The notes below the pieces were generated by a model. The model saw nothing but the letters and a program-made list of their open reading frames with translations, searched no databases and had not been told where the DNA came from. The translations under genes and the position numbers were made by a program. This document shows positions 4,117 to 64,000 of a stretch of 64,000 bases of DNA, piece by piece; the first letter of the stretch is position 1; each line of letters opens with the position of its first letter. The stretch lies in the IMG/VR virus record IMGVR_UViG_3300036944_001324, positions 62,001 through 126,000 of that record; one strand, written 5' to 3'. The stretch is from a virus.

Positions 4117-4150
4117 GCGCTAATTCTCCCTGAGCAATCAGGGTAGATAA

Positions 4151-4192
4151 AGCATAAGAAGAGGCCTTTCGGGGCCTCTTCTTTTATGCCGT
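4151..4192. terminator. Hairpin terminator with GCATA/TATGCCGT outer arms
   Basis: Arms GCATAAGAAGAGGCC and GGCCTCTTCTTTTATGC enclose a short loop, with a T-run inside the right arm. The outer bases GCATA/TATGC extend the stem past the T-run. It directly follows the capsid gene. One of about 19 similar elements in the window. Confidence 0.85.
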
Positions 4193-4217
4193 CAGTATAA
4201 CCGAACATTTGGTTTAA

Positions 4218-4280
4218 ACATTTTTTAGCAACATATCATCGTTGTGTAATGCGTGACAGCAATGTCTCGCAAATATGCCC
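4218..4280 (+). promoter_or_regulatory. Composite regulatory element, copy A (conserved 30-mer, hairpin, TATG)
   Basis: The core TTTTTTAGCAACATATCATC continues into GTTGTGTAATG and ends at 4251. Near-copies occur at 37843 and 63221. It is followed at once by a hairpin GCGTGACA-GCAA-TGTCTCGC (4251-4270, 7 of 8 pairs, GNRA-type loop), then AAATATGCC. It lies upstream of the leader ORF at 4319 and the gene at 4379. I infer a phage promoter or operator with a structured 5' leader; direct evidence is only the conservation and position. Confidence 0.6.
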
Positions 4281-4318
4281 TCTATACAAACACCTGCTTC
4301 CAACCCAAGGAGATAACG

Positions 4319-4366
4319 ATGATCAATGTAAATCAAGAAAGTCCATCGGAGCTTCACTCGAACTAA
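4319..4366 (+). CDS. Putative 15-residue leader peptide
   Basis: ATG 4319 follows a near-perfect ribosome site (AAGGAG, about 6 bases upstream). The peptide MINVNQESPSELHSN ends at TAA, 12 bases before ATG 4379. It is in the same frame as the 4379 gene but separated by TAA and a second in-frame TAG. It is therefore either a leader controlling the weakly initiated downstream gene or the degraded former N-terminus of that gene. Confidence 0.4.
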   Translation: MINVNQESPSELHSN

Positions 4367-4378
4367 AACGAATAGCTC

Positions 4379-9498: not shown

Positions 9499-9507
9499 AC
9501 GTTAAAG

Positions 9508-9551
9508 TGGCATAAAAGAAGAGAGGCCTAAAAAGCCTCTCTTCTATGCCG
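9508..9551. terminator. Hairpin terminator with GGCATA/TATGCCG outer arms
   Basis: Stem GAGAGGCC/GGCCTCTC flanked on the left by TGGCATAAAAGAA and on the right by TTCTATGCCGT. It lies between two plus-strand genes. Same family as 4151. Confidence 0.85.
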
Positions 9552-9591
9552 TTTCTTCAATTGTATTTATTGTTCACAAAGGAAACTAACC

Positions 9592-29084: not shown

Positions 29085-29181
29085 GGTGTTCTTTATCCTT
29101 GTGACTAATAAACCCGCATAAGTGATTCCCGACGCTTTTGCAGACCATTAAACGTGATCTGAAAGCTTCGGGAACAAGCCC

Positions 29182-29210
29182 TTGACGGGCACAGAAACTT
29201 ATGATATAAT
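29182..29210 (+). promoter_or_regulatory. Consensus host sigma-70 promoter with extended -10
   Basis: TTGACG (29182-29187), a 17-base spacer, then TATAAT (29205-29210), with TG one base before the -10 (TGnTATAAT). The start of transcription should fall near 29217, about 37 bases before ATG 29254. Matching the host consensus this closely is unusual here; no other intergenic region in the window shows it. Confidence 0.8.
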
Positions 29211-29253
29211 TTTCGCGATAACTGCAAAGAACCCTTAATGAGGCGTCCCCTAC

Positions 29254-37246: not shown

Positions 37247-37247
37247 A

Positions 37248-37291
37248 GCGGCATAAAAGCCCCTCTGAAAAGAGGGGCTTAATATGCTGTC
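37248..37291. terminator. Bidirectional terminator between convergent genes (GCGGCATA/TATGCTGT)
   Basis: GCGGCATAAAAGCCCCTCT pairs with AGAGGGGCTTAATATGCTGT around a 4-base loop. Confidence 0.9.
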
Positions 37292-37298
37292 TCGGTCG

Positions 37299-43351: not shown

Positions 43352-43354
43352 GAA

Positions 43355-43398
43355 GACAGCATAAGCAGGGAGCTTTCGCTCCCTGCTGCTATGCCGTT
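43355..43398. terminator. Bidirectional terminator between convergent genes (CAGCATA/TATGCCGT)
   Basis: ACAGCATAAGCAGGGAGC-tttc-GCTCCCTGCTGCTATGCCGT, a near-perfect ~17-bp stem. Confidence 0.9.
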
Positions 43399-43404
43399 TA
43401 GACG

Positions 43405-53848: not shown

Positions 53849-55852
53849 ATGTCTTCCAAAATTCCGTTTAACATCAAACTGCTACAGCTTGACGCTAAAG
53901 CTACGGTGGCGCTCAAACCTATCACAACGAACGACACGTTCGAAGGAGCCACCCGCAACTTTCACCCCAGTGGTTTGTTCTCAGTGAACATCTTTGGTCG
54001 TGTGGGTGATCCCTCACGGATGAAGAGTTTCGCCTACATCGACATCAAGGTACCGATCTTGCACCCCTTGGTGGTGCGGGTACTTGGCAAACTCAAACGC
54101 ATCTATCCTGAGATTCTCATGGGTAAGACCTACGCGGTCTGGGATGCAACACTCAAAGACTTCGTCAAAAGTGACATGCTCTCTGGTGAGACAGGTTATC
54201 ACTTCTTCATGCAGCACTTTGAGAAGATCCAGTTCCCGCAGCGCCTGTCCGATATTCGTGAACTGAACATCAAGTTCATCGAGAAGGTGCGTGGCGTGAA
54301 TGCGACGACTGAACGCATCATCGTTGCCCCGGCTGGTTTCCGTGACTTCATCATCCATGCGGATGACCGTGAAGAAGAAGACGAGGTCAATGCCCTGTAC
54401 CGCAAGATGCTGTCGGTCTCCAACCCGATCAGTCGCAGCGCTTTTGAAGCATCTCCCAAGACGTTCGATAAAGCACGCGCTTCCTTGCAATCGACCTTCA
54501 TCGAGATCTTCGAGTATTTCGAGAAAATGGTGGAAGGCAAGAACAAGCTTTTCATGGGTAAGTGGTTGACTCGTGAGATCGCTTACGGCACTCGTAACGT
54601 GATCACTACGCAGAACCTGCCTGTCAAGAAGCTCTTCGCCCCCGACTCACCCGGTTTCAACCACACGGGGATTGGCTTGTTCCAATACCTCAAAGCTTAC
54701 CAGCCTGTTTGTATTCACCAAGTTCGTGAAAACTTCATCTCCAAGGTGTTCACGACCCCGCAAGCTCCTGCGCTGCTGGTGAACATGAAGACGCTTCACA
54801 CCGAACGGGTGTTGGTGGACTCTGAACACTTCGACAGTTGGATGACACCTGAAGGCTTGGAGCGTATCTTCAACCTCTACGGTGAGGAAAGCGTTCGCCA
54901 TGAGCCTATCGTGATCGAAGGCCGCTACCTGGGTCTCATCTACAACGACGGCAAAGGCTTTAAGCTTTTCCAAGACATCGACGAGCTTCCAGAAGGTGCA
55001 GACCCTAAGTTCGTGAAACCCATCACGCTGTCTGAGCTGTTCTACATTGCCGTGTACCAATACACGGAAAACTACATCCTGAACGTTACCCGTTTTCCTG
55101 TGACGGGTTTTGGTTCGATCTATCCAAGCATCCCTTACCTGAAACCAACGATGGCGACGGTGAGTTTGCAACCGATGAACGATCAATGGGAGTTTGATGA
55201 GCAGCAACCTATTGCTTACAACTTCCCGGTCCGCGATAGTGCGTTCGTTAATACCCTGATGCCCGCACCAAACAAGCTCGGTGGGCTTAACGCCGACTTT
55301 GACGGGGACAAATGCACAGGCATGGGTATCTTCTCGCTGGAAGCTTGCGAAGAAGGTCGTCGCGTTCTGAAGAGCCGTAACTTCTACGTTCTCTCAAACG
55401 GCAAGATCGCCCACTCACTGAACACAGACACCGTCAAATACCTGATGCGCGGCCTTACCAGCAAGCCCCAGGCTTATCCGGTAACGGAAGCTTACCGGGA
55501 AGAAAATGACTCCACGTTCGAGCACTATGGTGAAGTGTTCAGCATCAACAAAGTGCACGAGATCATCGAGAAAAAGAAACTCGAGATTACTTATCTGAAT
55601 GCAAACAAGTCTTTGGCTTGGTTGCTCGATGTGCAAGACCGCAAAGGTCTGAAGTACGAAACGTTGGCTGATCCCGAACGGATCAAGAATGCGGATACCG
55701 AAACACCACTGATCGTGATCGATGACCCGCGCTGTGATTTGGTCGTGGCTGATGGTTTGCATCGGTTGGTCAAGGCTGTTCGTATTGAACACCGCACCAT
55801 GGTTCCTTGTTACGTCCTCAAATACTCGGACATTGCTTCCGCCCGTGTTTGA
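53849..55852 (+). CDS. Virion RNA polymerase beta-prime N-terminal part (phiKZ gp180-like) with C-terminal ParB/Srx-like domain
   Basis: 667 residues. The catalytic loop N481-A-D-F-D-G-D487, followed by KC instead of QM, holds the three Asp that bind the two catalytic magnesium ions. MGIFSLEACEEGRRVLKSRN next to it matches the bacterial LTLEAQLEARALMMSTNN stretch. The bridge helix and trigger loop are absent and must be in another gene. After ~580 the chain no longer looks like polymerase: LADPERIKNA, then PLIVIDD, VVADGLHRLVKA (D635-GLHR639) and TMVPCYVL follow the order of ParB/sulfiredoxin-fold domains (PI-x-V ... DGxHR-xxA ... VPV). The polymerase call is strong. The fused domain is my reading. 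Confidence 0.85.
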   Translation: MSSKIPFNIKLLQLDAKATVALKPITTNDTFEGATRNFHPSGLFSVNIFGRVGDPSRMKSFAYIDIKVPILHPLVVRVLGKLKRIYPEILMGKTYAVWDATLKDFVKSDMLSGETGYHFFMQHFEKIQFPQRLSDIRELNIKFIEKVRGVNATTERIIVAPAGFRDFIIHADDREEEDEVNALYRKMLSVSNPISRSAFEASPKTFDKARASLQSTFIEIFEYFEKMVEGKNKLFMGKWLTREIAYGTRNVITTQNLPVKKLFAPDSPGFNHTGIGLFQYLKAYQPVCIHQVRENFISKVFTTPQAPALLVNMKTLHTERVLVDSEHFDSWMTPEGLERIFNLYGEESVRHEPIVIEGRYLGLIYNDGKGFKLFQDIDELPEGADPKFVKPITLSELFYIAVYQYTENYILNVTRFPVTGFGSIYPSIPYLKPTMATVSLQPMNDQWEFDEQQPIAYNFPVRDSAFVNTLMPAPNKLGGLNADFDGDKCTGMGIFSLEACEEGRRVLKSRNFYVLSNGKIAHSLNTDTVKYLMRGLTSKPQAYPVTEAYREENDSTFEHYGEVFSINKVHEIIEKKKLEITYLNANKSLAWLLDVQDRKGLKYETLADPERIKNADTETPLIVIDDPRCDLVVADGLHRLVKAVRIEHRTMVPCYVLKYSDIASARV

Positions 55853-55879
55853 GTCCCTTTTCCTTTTGTGAGTAACGAC

Positions 55880-56122
55880 ATGTCTGATACTCGTGTTTAT
55901 GTTCCTGCAGGTTCTGCGGGAGGCCACCCGGCTTTTGTGGAGCATGTTCCGTTGGGTCAAACCAATGCGAAGAACTTCGGCATTGCGGTTACTGCCCTTC
56001 GGCCCAACATCCCTGGCGTGGATCTGCGTCAAGTGCAAAGCGTCAACGGTGCAGCCGTTGACGTGGGTACTTCTGCAAACTACGTCGATATGAATCCCCG
56101 CACTCACGTGCTCAAGAAATGA
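55880..56122 (+). CDS. Small unknown protein between the two RNAP genes, 80 residues
   Basis: ATG 55880 (MSDTRVYVPAGS) is preferred; an in-frame GTG at 55868 is possible. It overlaps the beta gene by ATGA at 56119-56122 and follows the beta-prime gene by 27 bases, so the three are one operon. The body is short and beta-like, Val/Asn/Gly-rich, with no Cys or catalytic motif. In the phiKZ order I recall, this is the place of gp179. A polymerase-associated or virion role is inferred only from position. Confidence 0.65.
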   Translation: MSDTRVYVPAGSAGGHPAFVEHVPLGQTNAKNFGIAVTALRPNIPGVDLRQVQSVNGAAVDVGTSANYVDMNPRTHVLKK

Positions 56123-59100
56123 AACCATCTCAATCCATCGCGTCTTTGCTCGGTCGGGTAGATCCTTCTTTGGAAGTGATGATTACCCCCGAGCTGTTTC
56201 GCCGTCGTTTCGTTGTGTGGAAACCAGAACACCTGGTCATGCCACCAACACCGCTGATCAACCAGTTCGAGTTCCCCAACAACGCAGTCTATCACTACGT
56301 TGTCATGGACGGCATCCAAGAGGGCCCAAGCCCTACGGATGTGAAGCTCGCGACGATCGATAAAAAGATCACCATCGAAGCAGTCCGTCAGCTCACAAGC
56401 TCTGAAGGTAAACCAGCCCCGATTGCTGTCAACATCCAGTCGTCTGTTGACGCCTGGCACCGGTACAACAAACGTTTTCGCAAATCGCGCGATGCGGTGG
56501 CAGAAGCTCCTAGCGAGCAGACACTGGCCATCATCAACTACGCGTTCTTGCCGCAGCTGTACCGCTACACCCGCTCGATCTACACGGATCGGTATCGCTG
56601 GGTGAATACCTGGGCCACTGTGTTCAACAAGATCAATGAGATCTCCCAGACCACCACCCGCACGAACTTCATCTTCGTGGACATGCCGCAGCAACTACCG
56701 TCCATGCAGCGTCTGGAAGCGCTGACAGACAAACCTGATGCAATGATCGTGCGTACGCTTCCAACTCCAGAAGACTGGATGCTCTACGAACTGTGGAAAT
56801 GGGTTGATCCTGAAAAGCGTGGTACTAGCTTGCTCAACCGGATCGATCCACTGCACTACGACAAGGTCCGACTGGTGATCCAAGACGCTGGTCGTTTCAT
56901 CTGCTTGGACTTGGGTCTTTTGAACCAATGGCTGCGCGATCCGACGGGTTCGAAAGAATCTACCGGACGTCTGAAGCCAGTCGAGTTGCAAAAGCGTCTG
57001 CTGCGCGGCTTGATGGGGTTGATGCAAAATCGTGTTCCAGTCATTCTTGACGAGAACACTGGCGATATCGATCAAACAGCCATCGATGCACAACAGCAAC
57101 AAAACGATGCTTCTACATCGACTAACGTGGGTGACACGGAGACCACTGCGCAACGGGTTGAGCGTATCCTGGCCGAGCTCGATGACGACATCGCTCAACT
57201 GGACACGAACGACGCGCAGCGGATGAAGATGCTGGAAGAAGGCGCCATCAGTGCTTCACAACCGGCTTCCGTAGAAACTACGGAAGAAGTGAGCTTTGAC
57301 AAACCAGTTACGCCTGTTGACATGATCCGCAAGCAAGCGGACAACCTGGACAACATGGGTGTACTCGCACCGTCCGAGTACCGCAAGATCTTGCGTTTGC
57401 TTGATAACGGTCAGAAACTCAAAGACCCCTTCGGCGGTGACAAGACGCTGGTGGAGTTCGGTACGGTCACTCCTGATGAGACGCTCATCAAGAATGTTCA
57501 CCAGTTGCCTGACTCGGTAACAATCATCGACAAGAGCATGCGTGAGGCATCGCTCAAGGATTTCGACAGCAAGTACATCGATCAGTTCCTGCGACGCGAT
57601 ACCGTCGGATGCGTTGCCGCCATGCAAAAAGCAGGGATGATCATCTCTGACTATCAGGTAGAGGTCAACGAAGACGCTCTTGGTAAGTACGAACTTCACT
57701 CCGTTCGTTTCTCTCCACTGGTAGGCCTTCCTACCACGTTGCGCTTTAAGCTCCCTGTTCCGGACTCGTCTGGCAAGATCAAGAGCGGCGGTACGGATTA
57801 CCGTTTCCGCAAACAGCGTGTGGACGCCCCCATCCGCAAGATCTCAGCTTCCCGTGTGGCTATCTCTAGCTACTATGGCAAGAGCTTTGTGTCCCGTTCT
57901 GAACGCAGTACCTACGACTACGGCCGCTGGTTGCAACGTGAAGTCATGGTGCAGGTCATGGGTGAGAACCCAACCATCACCAACATCAAAACAGGTGACG
58001 TGTTCTACCGCGAATGCACAGGACCTCGTTCGTTCACGGCGATGTCTGAGCGCTATCGTGAGTTCACCTTCCAAGGCATCAACTTCAATTTTGATTGGAG
58101 CAAGCAAAAGGAAATCTTCGGTGATGAAGCTATTGCCGAAGCCAAGACTCAAAACCTGACCCTCTGCGGTAAAGACGCCAATGCTCTTTACGCAGTGGAT
58201 GTGAACAACACGCTGTACAAGGTGGAGCCTGGTAATTCCACACCTGTGGAGTCCTTTGAAGTGTTCCTTGGTCTGGAAGCTTTGCGTGCTCCCTTGGAGT
58301 TCACGGAATGCCGCATCATGGGCAAGAACATTCCCACTGGTGTTGTACTGGCTTACTACTACGGCCTGAGCACGCTGATCAAGATGCTGGGTGCATCGGT
58401 GCGACGTGTTGGCGCTGGGCAGCGTCAGAACCTGCAACCCAACGAATGGTCGGTAGCCTTCGAAGATGAAACTCTCATCTTCAACCGTGACGATCGTCTG
58501 GCCACGCTGATCTTGGCTGGTTTCCGCTCGGTTGAAAAGAGCACCAAGCGTTACTCGATCTACGCTTTCGACAAGCAAGCCGTATACCTGAACGTTCTTG
58601 AGCAGCAAGGTCTGTCCGTTCGTTACCTGCGTGAACTCGACAACCTGGACAAGCTCTTCGTTGATCCGATCACCGAACGCGTTCTCAAACGCATGGGTGA
58701 GCCTACAACCTACCGTGGCCTTATCAAGCGTGCATCTGAGATGCTGCTCCTTGACGAGCATCCCCGTTTGCTTGACGTCCGTTACATGCGCTGGCGCGGT
58801 ATGGAGCGTATCGCAGGTAGCGTCTACACTGAGATGGTGCGTTCTGTGCGTGAGCATGGTTCTTTGGCCGGTCGTAGCAACGCCCATTTGAAGCTGAACG
58901 TCTACAGTGTCTGGAAAGCCGTGATGCAGGATCAGTCCATGACACAAGTCAAGGACATCAATCCCATCAACGACCTCAAGGAAATCGAAGCCACGACCTA
59001 CGCAGGTGCTGGTGGTCGCTCCAGCCGTTCGCTCACACGCTCTGCACGTTACTTCGATCCAACTGACCTGGGTGTTACCTCGGAAGCCACCTCGGACTCC

Positions 59101-60372
59101 AAGGACGTTGCTATCAACACCTACACCAGTGCCTCGCCTCGCTTTGACAGCCTGGAAGGTACGGTCATGGAGCCCTTGTACGAGAATACACCAGCGACCA
59201 GTATTCTCTCCACATCCGCCCTAGTATCCCCGTTCTCCACAAACGAGGACGGAAAAAGAACAAACTTTATCTCAGTTCAGCAAGGTCATGGCATCCCTTG
59301 CGATAACTACAAAGTCTCTCCGGTGCGAACTGGGTTTGAAGAAACCATCGCACACAAAGTCGGTGAGAACTTCGCTGCAGCAGCCAAGATGAACGGTAAA
59401 GTGACGCGTGTACGTCCTAACGGTATCTTGGTACAGTACGCCGATGGTAGTACTCAAGGTTTTGAAATTGGTCGTCGTTTTGGTAATGCCTCCGGTATGA
59501 CCATCCCGCACGATCTTGTCTCCAACTTCAAAGAAGGCGACAGTTTCAATGCTGGTGACGTACTGACCTATCACAAGGGCTTCTTCAAGCCCGATCGTTT
59601 CAACCCCAGTCAAGTGCGCTGGATGAACGGTACGATCTGCACAGTTGCTCTTTTGGAGAGCCGTCAGACCCACGAAGACGCTTGCTCTTTGTCTTCCAAG
59701 TTCGCAGGATCGTTCGGAACTCGCATGACAGCAGTCAAGCGGGTTGTCGTGAACTTTGACCAACAAGTCCACAGTTTGGTGAATGTTGGTGATCACGTGA
59801 GTTACTCGAGCAGCCTGTGTGTTATCGAGGACTCCATCGGAACAGATACGTCGCTTTTTACGGACGAGACGCTCAATACTTTGAAAGCCCTCTCGGGGCA
59901 GTCTCCTCGCGCTAAAGTGACAGGACGCGTGGACAATATCGAAGTCTTCTATCATGGGGACAAAGAAGATATGTCCGAAAGTCTTCGCTCGTTGGCCGAT
60001 GTCAGTGATCGCCGCATGGCTGATCGCAGGCGTTCTGTTGGTAAGGCTGTCTTTACAGGGCAAGTGGATGAAGGCTATCGCATCGAAGGGGAACCTTTGC
60101 TGCTTGACACGGCAGTGATCGTTGTCTACATTACCCACACTGTCGGTGCGGGTGTGGGCGACAAGTTCGTGTTCGGTAATCAGCTCAAGACCGTTGTATC
60201 TGAAGTTATGGATTATCCCGTGACTGCCAAGAACGGTATTGAAATTGATGCCATCTTCGGCGCCAAGTCCATCTTCGATCGGATTGTGCCTAGCCCATTC
60301 CTCATCGGAACCACTACCACTTTACTCGGCATCATCGGCAAAAACACTGCCAAAATCTTCAAGGGAAATTAA
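56119..60372 (+). CDS. Virion RNA polymerase beta, N-terminal and central part (phiKZ gp178-like), 1417 residues
   Basis: About 535-600 has GGTDYRFRKQRVDAPIRKIS and VAISSYYGKSFVSRSE, matching the beta segment after the lobe (IINGxExxVRKQR-type). About 975-990 (ARYFDPTDLGVTSE) corresponds to the HPTHYGRVCPIETPEG motif. About 1060-1090 (LVSPFSTNEDG, SVQQGHGIPC) corresponds to LIPFLEHDDANR and NMQRQAVP. About 1343-1417 (GVGDKFVFGNQLK, DYPVTAKNGIEIDAIFGAKS, SPFLIGTTTTLLG) corresponds to GDKMAGRHGNKG ... VPSRMNIGQILETHLG. It ends there, and the remaining beta clamp is the 35791 gene. About 315-385 is a Gln/Asn/Asp-rich linker. phiKZ packages this enzyme in the head to transcribe early genes. Confidence 0.9.
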   Translation: MKPSQSIASLLGRVDPSLEVMITPELFRRRFVVWKPEHLVMPPTPLINQFEFPNNAVYHYVVMDGIQEGPSPTDVKLATIDKKITIEAVRQLTSSEGKPAPIAVNIQSSVDAWHRYNKRFRKSRDAVAEAPSEQTLAIINYAFLPQLYRYTRSIYTDRYRWVNTWATVFNKINEISQTTTRTNFIFVDMPQQLPSMQRLEALTDKPDAMIVRTLPTPEDWMLYELWKWVDPEKRGTSLLNRIDPLHYDKVRLVIQDAGRFICLDLGLLNQWLRDPTGSKESTGRLKPVELQKRLLRGLMGLMQNRVPVILDENTGDIDQTAIDAQQQQNDASTSTNVGDTETTAQRVERILAELDDDIAQLDTNDAQRMKMLEEGAISASQPASVETTEEVSFDKPVTPVDMIRKQADNLDNMGVLAPSEYRKILRLLDNGQKLKDPFGGDKTLVEFGTVTPDETLIKNVHQLPDSVTIIDKSMREASLKDFDSKYIDQFLRRDTVGCVAAMQKAGMIISDYQVEVNEDALGKYELHSVRFSPLVGLPTTLRFKLPVPDSSGKIKSGGTDYRFRKQRVDAPIRKISASRVAISSYYGKSFVSRSERSTYDYGRWLQREVMVQVMGENPTITNIKTGDVFYRECTGPRSFTAMSERYREFTFQGINFNFDWSKQKEIFGDEAIAEAKTQNLTLCGKDANALYAVDVNNTLYKVEPGNSTPVESFEVFLGLEALRAPLEFTECRIMGKNIPTGVVLAYYYGLSTLIKMLGASVRRVGAGQRQNLQPNEWSVAFEDETLIFNRDDRLATLILAGFRSVEKSTKRYSIYAFDKQAVYLNVLEQQGLSVRYLRELDNLDKLFVDPITERVLKRMGEPTTYRGLIKRASEMLLLDEHPRLLDVRYMRWRGMERIAGSVYTEMVRSVREHGSLAGRSNAHLKLNVYSVWKAVMQDQSMTQVKDINPINDLKEIEATTYAGAGGRSSRSLTRSARYFDPTDLGVTSEATSDSKDVAINTYTSASPRFDSLEGTVMEPLYENTPATSILSTSALVSPFSTNEDGKRTNFISVQQGHGIPCDNYKVSPVRTGFEETIAHKVGENFAAAAKMNGKVTRVRPNGILVQYADGSTQGFEIGRRFGNASGMTIPHDLVSNFKEGDSFNAGDVLTYHKGFFKPDRFNPSQVRWMNGTICTVALLESRQTHEDACSLSSKFAGSFGTRMTAVKRVVVNFDQQVHSLVNVGDHVSYSSSLCVIEDSIGTDTSLFTDETLNTLKALSGQSPRAKVTGRVDNIEVFYHGDKEDMSESLRSLADVSDRRMADRRRSVGKAVFTGQVDEGYRIEGEPLLLDTAVIVVYITHTVGAGVGDKFVFGNQLKTVVSEVMDYPVTAKNGIEIDAIFGAKSIFDRIVPSPFLIGTTTTLLGIIGKNTAKIFKGN

Positions 60373-62152: not shown

Positions 62153-62881
62153 ATGGATTTCAGTCAATTGCACCGGGACGCAGCAGCAGTGAAGAAAACT
62201 CTGCTGATGACGCCTGGTGATAACAGCGTGTACACCAAGACGGGATGCAAGGTTTACTTCCCGCAGCGCTTCCTTGATCGCTCTATGGCGTTCGTAGGCA
62301 GTGAGAACTTGGTCTGCGGTATTGTGGCTATCGTGTTGGAAACCGGCGAGTACGCAGTCTTGTCGGTGAACGCCATGGTTCCGATGGAGCCCGACACAAT
62401 CGAGAAGGTTAACTACCTTGGTGTCGATTATGTGGAGTTTGGTTTTGAGCCCGGTGCTCGTGTCATCAAGACCCTTGATTTGGTCAAGAACGACATCTTG
62501 GTTTACCGGATCAACAACGAACTTATCTCCAAAGGAAATGTTCCTTGGTACATGGAGTACGACGACATGGCTGCAGTGTTTGATACTGCGGCCAAACATG
62601 CAGGCACCAACATCGCTGAAAACAGTGAGGTGACGGAACTCATCGTTTCATTGATCGCGCGTGACCAAGAAGATCGCACGGTTTACTACCGCTCGACTAT
62701 CAACACGCCAGAAGAGATGAAAGCCAAGAAAGTAGCATGGATCGCCATGATGAGCGCTGCTTACTCAGCGACCAATACCCTGAACAAACTAGGCGGCAGC
62801 TACTTCACTGAAGGTGCTTTGTCCGCTATGGTCTATCCGACTGAACGTGTGGAGAAGATCGAAGAGTTGATCCGAGCCTGA
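62153..62881 (+). CDS. Unknown phage protein, 242 residues
   Basis: Very good ribosome site (AGAGGAAGAT) before ATG 62153. Alpha/beta protein: N-terminal strands (GCKVYFPQRFLDRSMAFVG), a central beta region and a helical C-terminus. No protease triad, P-loop or membrane segment is visible. It takes the place of phiKZ gp176 in the order I recall. It is coupled to the small membrane protein gene 3 bases downstream. Function unknown. Confidence 0.65.
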   Translation: MDFSQLHRDAAAVKKTLLMTPGDNSVYTKTGCKVYFPQRFLDRSMAFVGSENLVCGIVAIVLETGEYAVLSVNAMVPMEPDTIEKVNYLGVDYVEFGFEPGARVIKTLDLVKNDILVYRINNELISKGNVPWYMEYDDMAAVFDTAAKHAGTNIAENSEVTELIVSLIARDQEDRTVYYRSTINTPEEMKAKKVAWIAMMSAAYSATNTLNKLGGSYFTEGALSAMVYPTERVEKIEELIRA

Positions 62882-62884
62882 GTC

Positions 62885-63154
62885 ATGGAAGACGCGGCTT
62901 TCGATCAGTTCACGTTCGTCATGTTGATCATGACGCTCAAAGAGATCGCTCACACTGAGATCTTTCGGACCAACCAAGAACGCTCTAAGCGTTTCGCCAC
63001 GAATTACCCGACGCTCATGGCGGGCGGTTACGTGTGTAGTTGGGGGGTTACCCTATGGTTGTTGTTTGACAACGCTCCAGCGGCCATTGCGGGCTTCCTA
63101 GCGGCATTCCTGTGGGAGGTTCTCATGACACCTACAGCTGGCCGTAAAAAGTAG
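62885..63154 (+). CDS. Small membrane protein, 89 residues
   Basis: ATG 62885 is 3 bases after the previous stop and has only a GAG-type site. A hydrophobic N-terminal helix (FTFVMLIMTLKEI) is possibly amphipathic. A membrane hairpin at ~45-82 (YVCSWGVTLWLLFDNAPAAI, then AGFLAAFLWEVL) follows, ending in a basic tail (AGRKK). It could be a small integral membrane or virion membrane-interacting protein. No family recognised. Confidence 0.6.
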   Translation: MEDAAFDQFTFVMLIMTLKEIAHTEIFRTNQERSKRFATNYPTLMAGGYVCSWGVTLWLLFDNAPAAIAGFLAAFLWEVLMTPTAGRKK

Positions 63155-63164
63155 ACATACTACA

Positions 63165-63203
63165 AGCATAAAAGCCAGCCGTAAAAAGCTGGCTTTTATG
63201 CTG
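63165..63203. terminator. Hairpin terminator, perfect 15-bp arms
   Basis: AGCATAAAAGCCAGC (63165-63179) and GCTGGCTTTTATGCT (63188-63202) around an 8-base loop. The textbook member of the GCATA/TATGC family. Confidence 0.9.
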
Positions 63204-63220
63204 TTTAGTAGGGTGAAGGT

Positions 63221-63256
63221 AACATTTTTCAGCGATACATCATCGATGTGTATTGG
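63221..63256 (+). promoter_or_regulatory. Composite regulatory element, copy C (30-mer)
   Basis: AACATTTTTCAGCGATACAT continues into CATCGATGTGTATTGG. It has the clearest internal dyad of the three copies (ATACAT...ATGTGTAT around CATCGATG). It is followed by the hairpin and TATGCCGT at 63275-63305. The nearest downstream gene starts at 63398. Confidence 0.6.
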
Positions 63257-63274
63257 TACGTCTAAGCGTACAAG

Positions 63275-63305
63275 CCCTGGCTAGCAACCAGGGTTTTTAT
63301 GCCGT
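63275..63305 (+). terminator. Intrinsic terminator/attenuator ending in TATGCCGT
   Basis: CCCTGG-ctagcaa-CCAGGG followed by TTTTTATGCCGT. No gene ends here: it lies 19 bases after element copy C, so if that element is a promoter this hairpin would cut off or attenuate its transcript. Alternatively the pair marks a short non-coding RNA. Confidence 0.7.
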
Positions 63306-63343
63306 CTAAATGCAAACTTCTCACTAAACGGATTTTATAAAAA

Positions 63344-63369
63344 CCGGACACCTAATTGCGTGTGTCCGG
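63344..63369 (+). promoter_or_regulatory. Leader hairpin just upstream of the 63398 gene, followed by TATGTCGT
   Basis: CCGGACAC-n10-GTGTCCGG, perfect 8-bp arms, directly followed by TATGTCGTT. It has no T-run. It may be a degenerate member of the same family or a structured 5' leader. Confidence 0.6.
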
Positions 63370-63397
63370 TATGTCGTTCAATCATCGAAAGAAAAAC

Positions 63398-63823
63398 ATG
63401 CAATACTTGAATCAACTCACTGGTCGTTCTTTCTCTTTGTCTTTGGTGGTTTGTGAGAAAAGAGGTAAAGGGGTAATTGCCTATCTTGTTCCAACACATC
63501 TCGTAGGTAATCCCGTTATTGGGGTTATGGATAGAACGCGCATGACGCCGAGCGACGGAAAACCCTGGTATCCAGTGTTCGAGGGTGACGACCTTATCTC
63601 GGCGCTCGCTGGACTGGAAACTTCTATTTCTGTCGTACTCTCACGGACACGAAACGGCGAGATAATTTCCGTAGAGAAGTTCGCAGCGATGACGTGGAAC
63701 ACAGCAGTGTCCACTATTCAACATAACCGACCCGTTCTGAGTGTTACAGCTATTCTTAAAATGGAAGACATCTCACAGCTCATTCCGCGAGATAAGGCCG
63801 ACCCGCCTTCCTGCGGTATCTAA
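63398..63823 (+). CDS. Unknown phage protein, 141 residues
   Basis: ATG 63398 (MQYLNQLTGRSFS) is chosen because GAAAGAAAA precedes it; in-frame starts at 63371 and 63356 lie in the hairpin. Small alpha/beta protein with strands (VGNPVIGVMDRT-type) and a C-terminal Asp/Lys-rich end. No motif recognised. It is 9 bases from the next gene, so probably in one operon under the 63221 element. Confidence 0.6.
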   Translation: MQYLNQLTGRSFSLSLVVCEKRGKGVIAYLVPTHLVGNPVIGVMDRTRMTPSDGKPWYPVFEGDDLISALAGLETSISVVLSRTRNGEIISVEKFAAMTWNTAVSTIQHNRPVLSVTAILKMEDISQLIPRDKADPPSCGI

Positions 63824-63832
63824 GGGGTTATC

Positions 63833-64000
63833 ATGAAAGACTTTTTCACATCTGAAGTTTTGCACCCTACTGGGTTTGCCAAGATGCAGGACAAAGACGC
63901 CGTTCGTCACAAAATCGGATTGATCTTAGCCGGTGCAGATCACGCCTATTTGATCCTCGCTGACCATCCTCTTGGTCTCTACGATAAGGACAAACTTCAC
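63833..64000 (+). CDS. Unknown phage protein, N-terminal 56 residues, cut by window edge
   Basis: ATG 63833 follows AAGGGG with good spacing, and the frame is open to the window end. It begins MKDFFTSEVLHPTGFAKMQD. Too short to classify. In phiKZ the prohead protease gene (gp175) lies near here, but nothing in these residues supports that identity. Confidence 0.55.
   Translation, partial: MKDFFTSEVLHPTGFAKMQDKDAVRHKIGLILAGADHAYLILADHPLGLYDKDKLH

Follow-up and report, generated by a model that had tools for sequence, protein, structure and literature searches.

Between two orphan genes of a jumbo phage, an early-promoter motif is followed by hairpins of the terminator kind before the first downstream gene begins. 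We put at about even odds (a probability of roughly 0.5) the reading that this arrangement is a promoter-proximal attenuator, which would yield a leader RNA of ~48-54 nt and keep the genes at 63398 and 63833 low or conditional in expression. The window, the whole 64,000-nucleotide stretch analysed, represents bases 62001-126000 of a virus record with a total length of 271,654 bp. Judged from its encoded proteins, the record is a phiKZ-related jumbo phage with its own RNA polymerases: RNA polymerase beta/beta'-like subunits are encoded at 53849-60372, and the gene at 62153-62881 belongs to a virion protein family common to phiKZ gp176. The nearest named phages via this gp176-like protein are Burkholderia FLC9, Klebsiella Eowyn and Serratia KpGz_1/KpHz_2, and because identities are only 45-48%, the phage is phiKZ-related with no close named relative.

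The initial annotation described three hairpins and one conserved 30-mer packed into 240 bases with no gene. All four items were recovered, and on the plus strand no ORF of at least 50 aa starts between 63154 and 63356. The features of interval 63155-63397 and its flanks are as follows.

62885-63154, plus strand: orphan 89-aa gene (ORF and gene caller), with its transcript end assigned to hairpin a
63165-63204, plus strand: hairpin a with TATGCTGT, putative bidirectional-type terminator of the same class as other gene ends
63218-63257, plus strand: putative early (virion RNA polymerase) promoter motif, containing the 30-mer at 63221-63250
63250-63303, plus strand: predicted short leader RNA of ~48-54 nt, from the promoter and terminator c
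63266-63306, plus strand: hairpin c with T-run and TATGCCGTC, putative promoter-proximal terminator (stem-loop analysis)
63343-63377, plus strand: hairpin d with TATGTCGT, terminator-like; other terminators of the phage also lack a T-run
63398-63823, plus strand: first gene after the leader, orphan, 141 aa (ORF and gene caller)
63833-64000, plus strand, running past the window: second gene of the same cassette, 128 aa (ORF and gene caller)

PHROG and Pfam searches gave no match for the 89-aa and 141-aa products, and a Pfam search gave none for the 128-aa product. The start codon of the 63398 ORF is uncertain because an in-frame ATG lies at 63371, inside the TATG of hairpin d. Of 400 dinucleotide shuffles, 1 contained three such hairpins per 243 bp and none matched the best hairpin of the interval. 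A simple terminator scan did not list hairpins c and d and, over 50-64 kb, gave no more hits than shuffled sequence did; an Rfam search returned no known RNA family.

A probable early promoter at a module boundary

With up to 3 mismatches allowed, the conserved 30-mer occurs only once in the window, and looser copies occur at 4217 and 37844. Limitation of the element to these three copies was rejected, because shorter patterns, expectation-maximisation and a model search gave more. A shorter pattern added two copies to the initial three, and expectation-maximisation over upstream regions in ~165 kb returned 18 sites of 17.6-39 bits, compared to 5.5 for the best reversed-sequence control. A sequence model trained on 17 sites, including 63218, was then run on the whole record and matched 23 copies, all on the plus strand (binomial p 2.4e-7), six of which lay outside the training set. 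The 63218 copy has the highest score of the 23, though it was part of the training set. Copies lie mostly 30-87 nt upstream of a start codon.

Early promoters of the phiKZ group (N1M2, OBP, 201phi2-1, EL and phiKZ) have the same register, with an A/T run, TTTCA, an AT-rich core and GTG; their core is KATATTATYWAA and the core here is GATATATCATCG. Many copies stand before genes in those phages, and likewise here. Early sites of phiKZ have the same layout, with an A run, TTT and then TATATTAC, 31-72 nt before genes. A published N1M2 consensus, TBYAWWWWWTTTCARRYAKATATTATYWAAGTGWA, has an OBP counterpart (PMC7058600), and a comparison with 83 kb, both strands included, puts the best site for both consensus sequences at 63218 (27/35 for N1M2 and 26/33 for OBP), with the next ranks taken mostly by other motif copies. 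Reversed-consensus controls reached nearly the same counts (24-26) at random places, so it is co-location, not score, that carries the weight of this match. According to a review (PMC7598289), every profiled phage of this kind has been found to use such motifs as early promoters. The best reading of 63218-63257 is thus an early promoter, read, by homology, by the virion RNA polymerase, and the 30-mer singled out in the initial annotation is part of this motif. Column 33 of the motif is an invariant G, from which transcription likely starts near G63250. A sigma-70 promoter at the element was rejected, because a scan found none and conservation continues through the spacer. Elsewhere, the divergent gap at 29085-29253 contains a near-consensus sigma-70 promoter (TTGACG-17-TATAAT), which is unexpected in a phage group thought to be independent of the host polymerase. 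A protein just upstream of one early-promoter copy (L018 38-577) ends in a glycine-rich repeat tail of GGGGW type.

Hairpin a (63165-63202; perfect 15-bp stem, 8-nt loop, TATGCTGT at 63197) had been noted as a perfect terminator and can now be assigned more precisely, as the terminator at the 3' end of the gene whose last base is 63154. Its succession by a promoter is the usual module boundary in this phage, because 10 of 17 early promoters sit 10-68 nt behind a hairpin+TATG-type terminator. The PeSL motifs of T4-like phages, named in PMC4503421, join a compact stem-loop to an early promoter at exchangeable-gene boundaries. PeSL resembles the block form found at those ten early promoters in joining a terminator to an early promoter. 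Unlike PeSL, the element here belongs to another phage group and polymerase and has a further terminator after the promoter; the resemblance is one of form and does not extend to movement by recombination.

The neighbourhood bears on the most durable alternative, in which the interval is a relic or spacer: a small gene between the promoter and hairpin c, and perhaps another before hairpin d, would have been deleted from a variable cassette, leaving promoter and terminators with no regulatory purpose and a short RNA that may arise and do nothing. The gp176-like gene adjoins the head maturation protease gene in FLC9, LucasX and 201phi2-1; here the two are separated by three orphan genes and the 63155-63397 region. 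Searches of IMG/VR returned no near relative that has this cassette. Genes are evidently gained and lost at this site, so the relic explanation stays in play. Loss of a gene could produce just what is seen here, and a lost-gene relic would make the same RNA, but no other motif copy scores as high as the 63218 promoter and the structures appear intact. We regard this explanation as a serious, if rather unlikely, competitor to attenuation.

Hairpins with a TATGYYGT tail

Hairpins at gene ends of this phage are followed by TATGCCGT, TATGCTGT, TATGTTGT or TATGTCGT, and many are preceded by the mirror image ACGGCATA on their opposite flank. TATG follows 23 of 34 strong gene-end hairpins, where ~0.1 per hairpin is expected, and the combination recurs in phiKZ (11/17), FLC9 (11/16), LucasX (10/14), Eowyn (8/17) and 201phi2-1 (6/12). 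TATGCYGTY occurs 64 times in the record versus 7 times for the reversed control. Such hairpins are present in 9/13 convergent versus 0/11 divergent gaps here, and in 20/23 versus 1/23 in relatives, counts that are approximate with gene calls from a simple codon-usage caller. Hairpin + TATGYYGT is thus distributed across gaps in a pattern characteristic of terminators. No description of this signature was found in the searched literature, which had limited coverage, and the signature may already be known.

A palindrome of the form ACRGCATAAAA-stem-loop-stem-TTTTATGCYGT is shared among gene ends in the window (e.g., 4117-4378, 9499-9591, 37247-37298 and 43352-43404) and in phiKZ, FLC9, LucasX, Eowyn and 201phi2-1. 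In convergent gaps it is usually present on both sides, and it includes TATG, the start motif of the phiKZ nvRNAP.

Hairpin c (63266-63302) has a 15-position stem with one mismatch, a 7-nt loop and a T-run, with TATGCCGT at 63298; its TATGCCGTC is at record position 125298. It is a G+C-rich hairpin with a T-run directly after it, as in intrinsic terminators. The earlier statement that the 63275 hairpin follows no gene holds, in that no gene precedes hairpin c, which is of the phage's usual terminator type. Hairpin d (63343-63370; 9-bp stem, 10-nt loop, TATGTCGT at 63370) is followed by ATGTCGTT with no T-run, and because the T-run is missing it is called terminator-like only.

A more far-reaching proposal is that hairpin + TATGYYGT is the nucleus-forming jumbo phages' own terminator code, in which TATG, the start motif of the non-virion polymerase, would help to pause or release polymerase, and that its use behind 63218 makes a dedicated early regulatory RNA at 63250-63303; we consider this combined claim improbable. 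It is also unlikely that the TATG tails after hairpins c and d are late promoters, that is, starts of the non-virion polymerase for late expression of 63398. In phiKZ, the nvRNAP does begin late transcripts at TATG, with G as +1, and the TATG at 63370 is 24 nt upstream of the ATG at 63398, but the abundance of hairpin+TATG in convergent gaps and its near-absence from divergent gaps argue against late promoters, and the TATG of the studied phiKZ late promoter P119L is not preceded by a hairpin. Gap orientation led us to reject late promoters as the main reading.

The leader and its predicted short RNA

Measured from guessed start to start codon, 18 of 20 leaders are 30-87 nt long; the two long leaders are those at 4214 (133 nt) and at 63250 (148 nt, the longest). 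Among 17 leaders inspected, only that of 63398 has a hairpin scoring >20 between promoter and gene. Compared to early promoters of the phiKZ group, one copy here is followed by terminators, and 63218-63398 has one feature of a transcription attenuator, a terminator between a promoter and its first gene. The arrangement is unusual for this phage and its parts are of known kinds; promoter and arrangement both fall within known kinds. The 145-nt leader folds better than shuffles (z -2.85), as does the 53-nt segment at 63253-63305 (-20 kcal/mol, z -2.81). No relatives with the region were found in which conservation or covariation of hairpins c and d could be followed. A conserved leader peptide was rejected, because short frames are not common to other motif copies; those present run from ATG 63247, which begins before the guessed start, to TAG, and from ATG 63299 for 13 codons, ending before hairpin d.

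Two further loci have related layouts, both with weak sites outside the training set of the model. At C1:239673-239784, a weak promoter-like site (239678) overlapping a stop codon is followed by a terminator with TATGCCGTC and then a gene; this is a possible second promoter-terminator-gene case, and the hairpin could also serve as the 3' end of the gene before it. At C1:264709-264840, an early-promoter-like site (264713) is followed ~75 nt later by a hairpin + TATGTCG and runs towards an oppositely oriented gene, before which no gene lies in sense orientation; it is a candidate for a stand-alone RNA of ~100 nt.

Small hairpins are present right after the guessed start in several early leaders, some flanked by GAGA...TCTC, and may protect the 5' end. 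Several early leaders with a small 5'-terminal hairpin (e.g., C1:53216, 217729, 60104 and 180087) lend something to the view that hairpins c and d are non-terminating 5' leader structures that protect the mRNA or tune its translation, but those hairpins are weaker and have neither T-run nor TATGYYGT, and hairpin c has every element of a terminator and lies away from the 5' end, so this view has little chance of being right.

For the attenuator that we prefer, promoter motif, terminator class and order rest on sequence statistics. The virion polymerase would start near G63250 and meet phage-type terminator c ~50 nt later, where most early transcripts would stop as a hairpin RNA of ~48-54 nt. 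Hairpin d would catch part of the transcripts that pass hairpin c, and the fraction reading through both would express 63398 and 63833. If the promoter fires and hairpin c works, a short RNA from 63250 to ~63303 would follow, close in size and position to the one that the initial annotation predicted; with the genes expressed by read-through, the leader would act as a promoter-proximal attenuator. Where transcription starts, that it does terminate, that some of it reads through and that it is regulated in any way are inferences. The initial annotation had proposed a short non-coding RNA or an attenuator; promoter motif, terminator c and their order support this in part, and single-sequence folds of the leader showed no antiterminator or sensor structure.

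A direct precedent, by analogy, for early stopping within a leader is the 5'UTR-derived non-coding RNA of phiKZ p40, which has two stem-loops, of which the downstream one was proposed to end transcription ahead of the gene (PMC8545117). The p40 RNA is ~180 nt and detected by Northern blot, whereas the RNA here is ~50 nt and predicted.

Consequences for phages with their own polymerases

The 63155-63397 interval offers a precisely located, testable case of probable promoter-proximal termination in a phage with its own RNA polymerases, and it ties such termination to a terminator signature common to the phiKZ group. If TATG serves for both start and stop, many genomic TATG would be stop signals, which would provide a handle on how the nvRNAP chooses its starts among the abundant TATG sequences.
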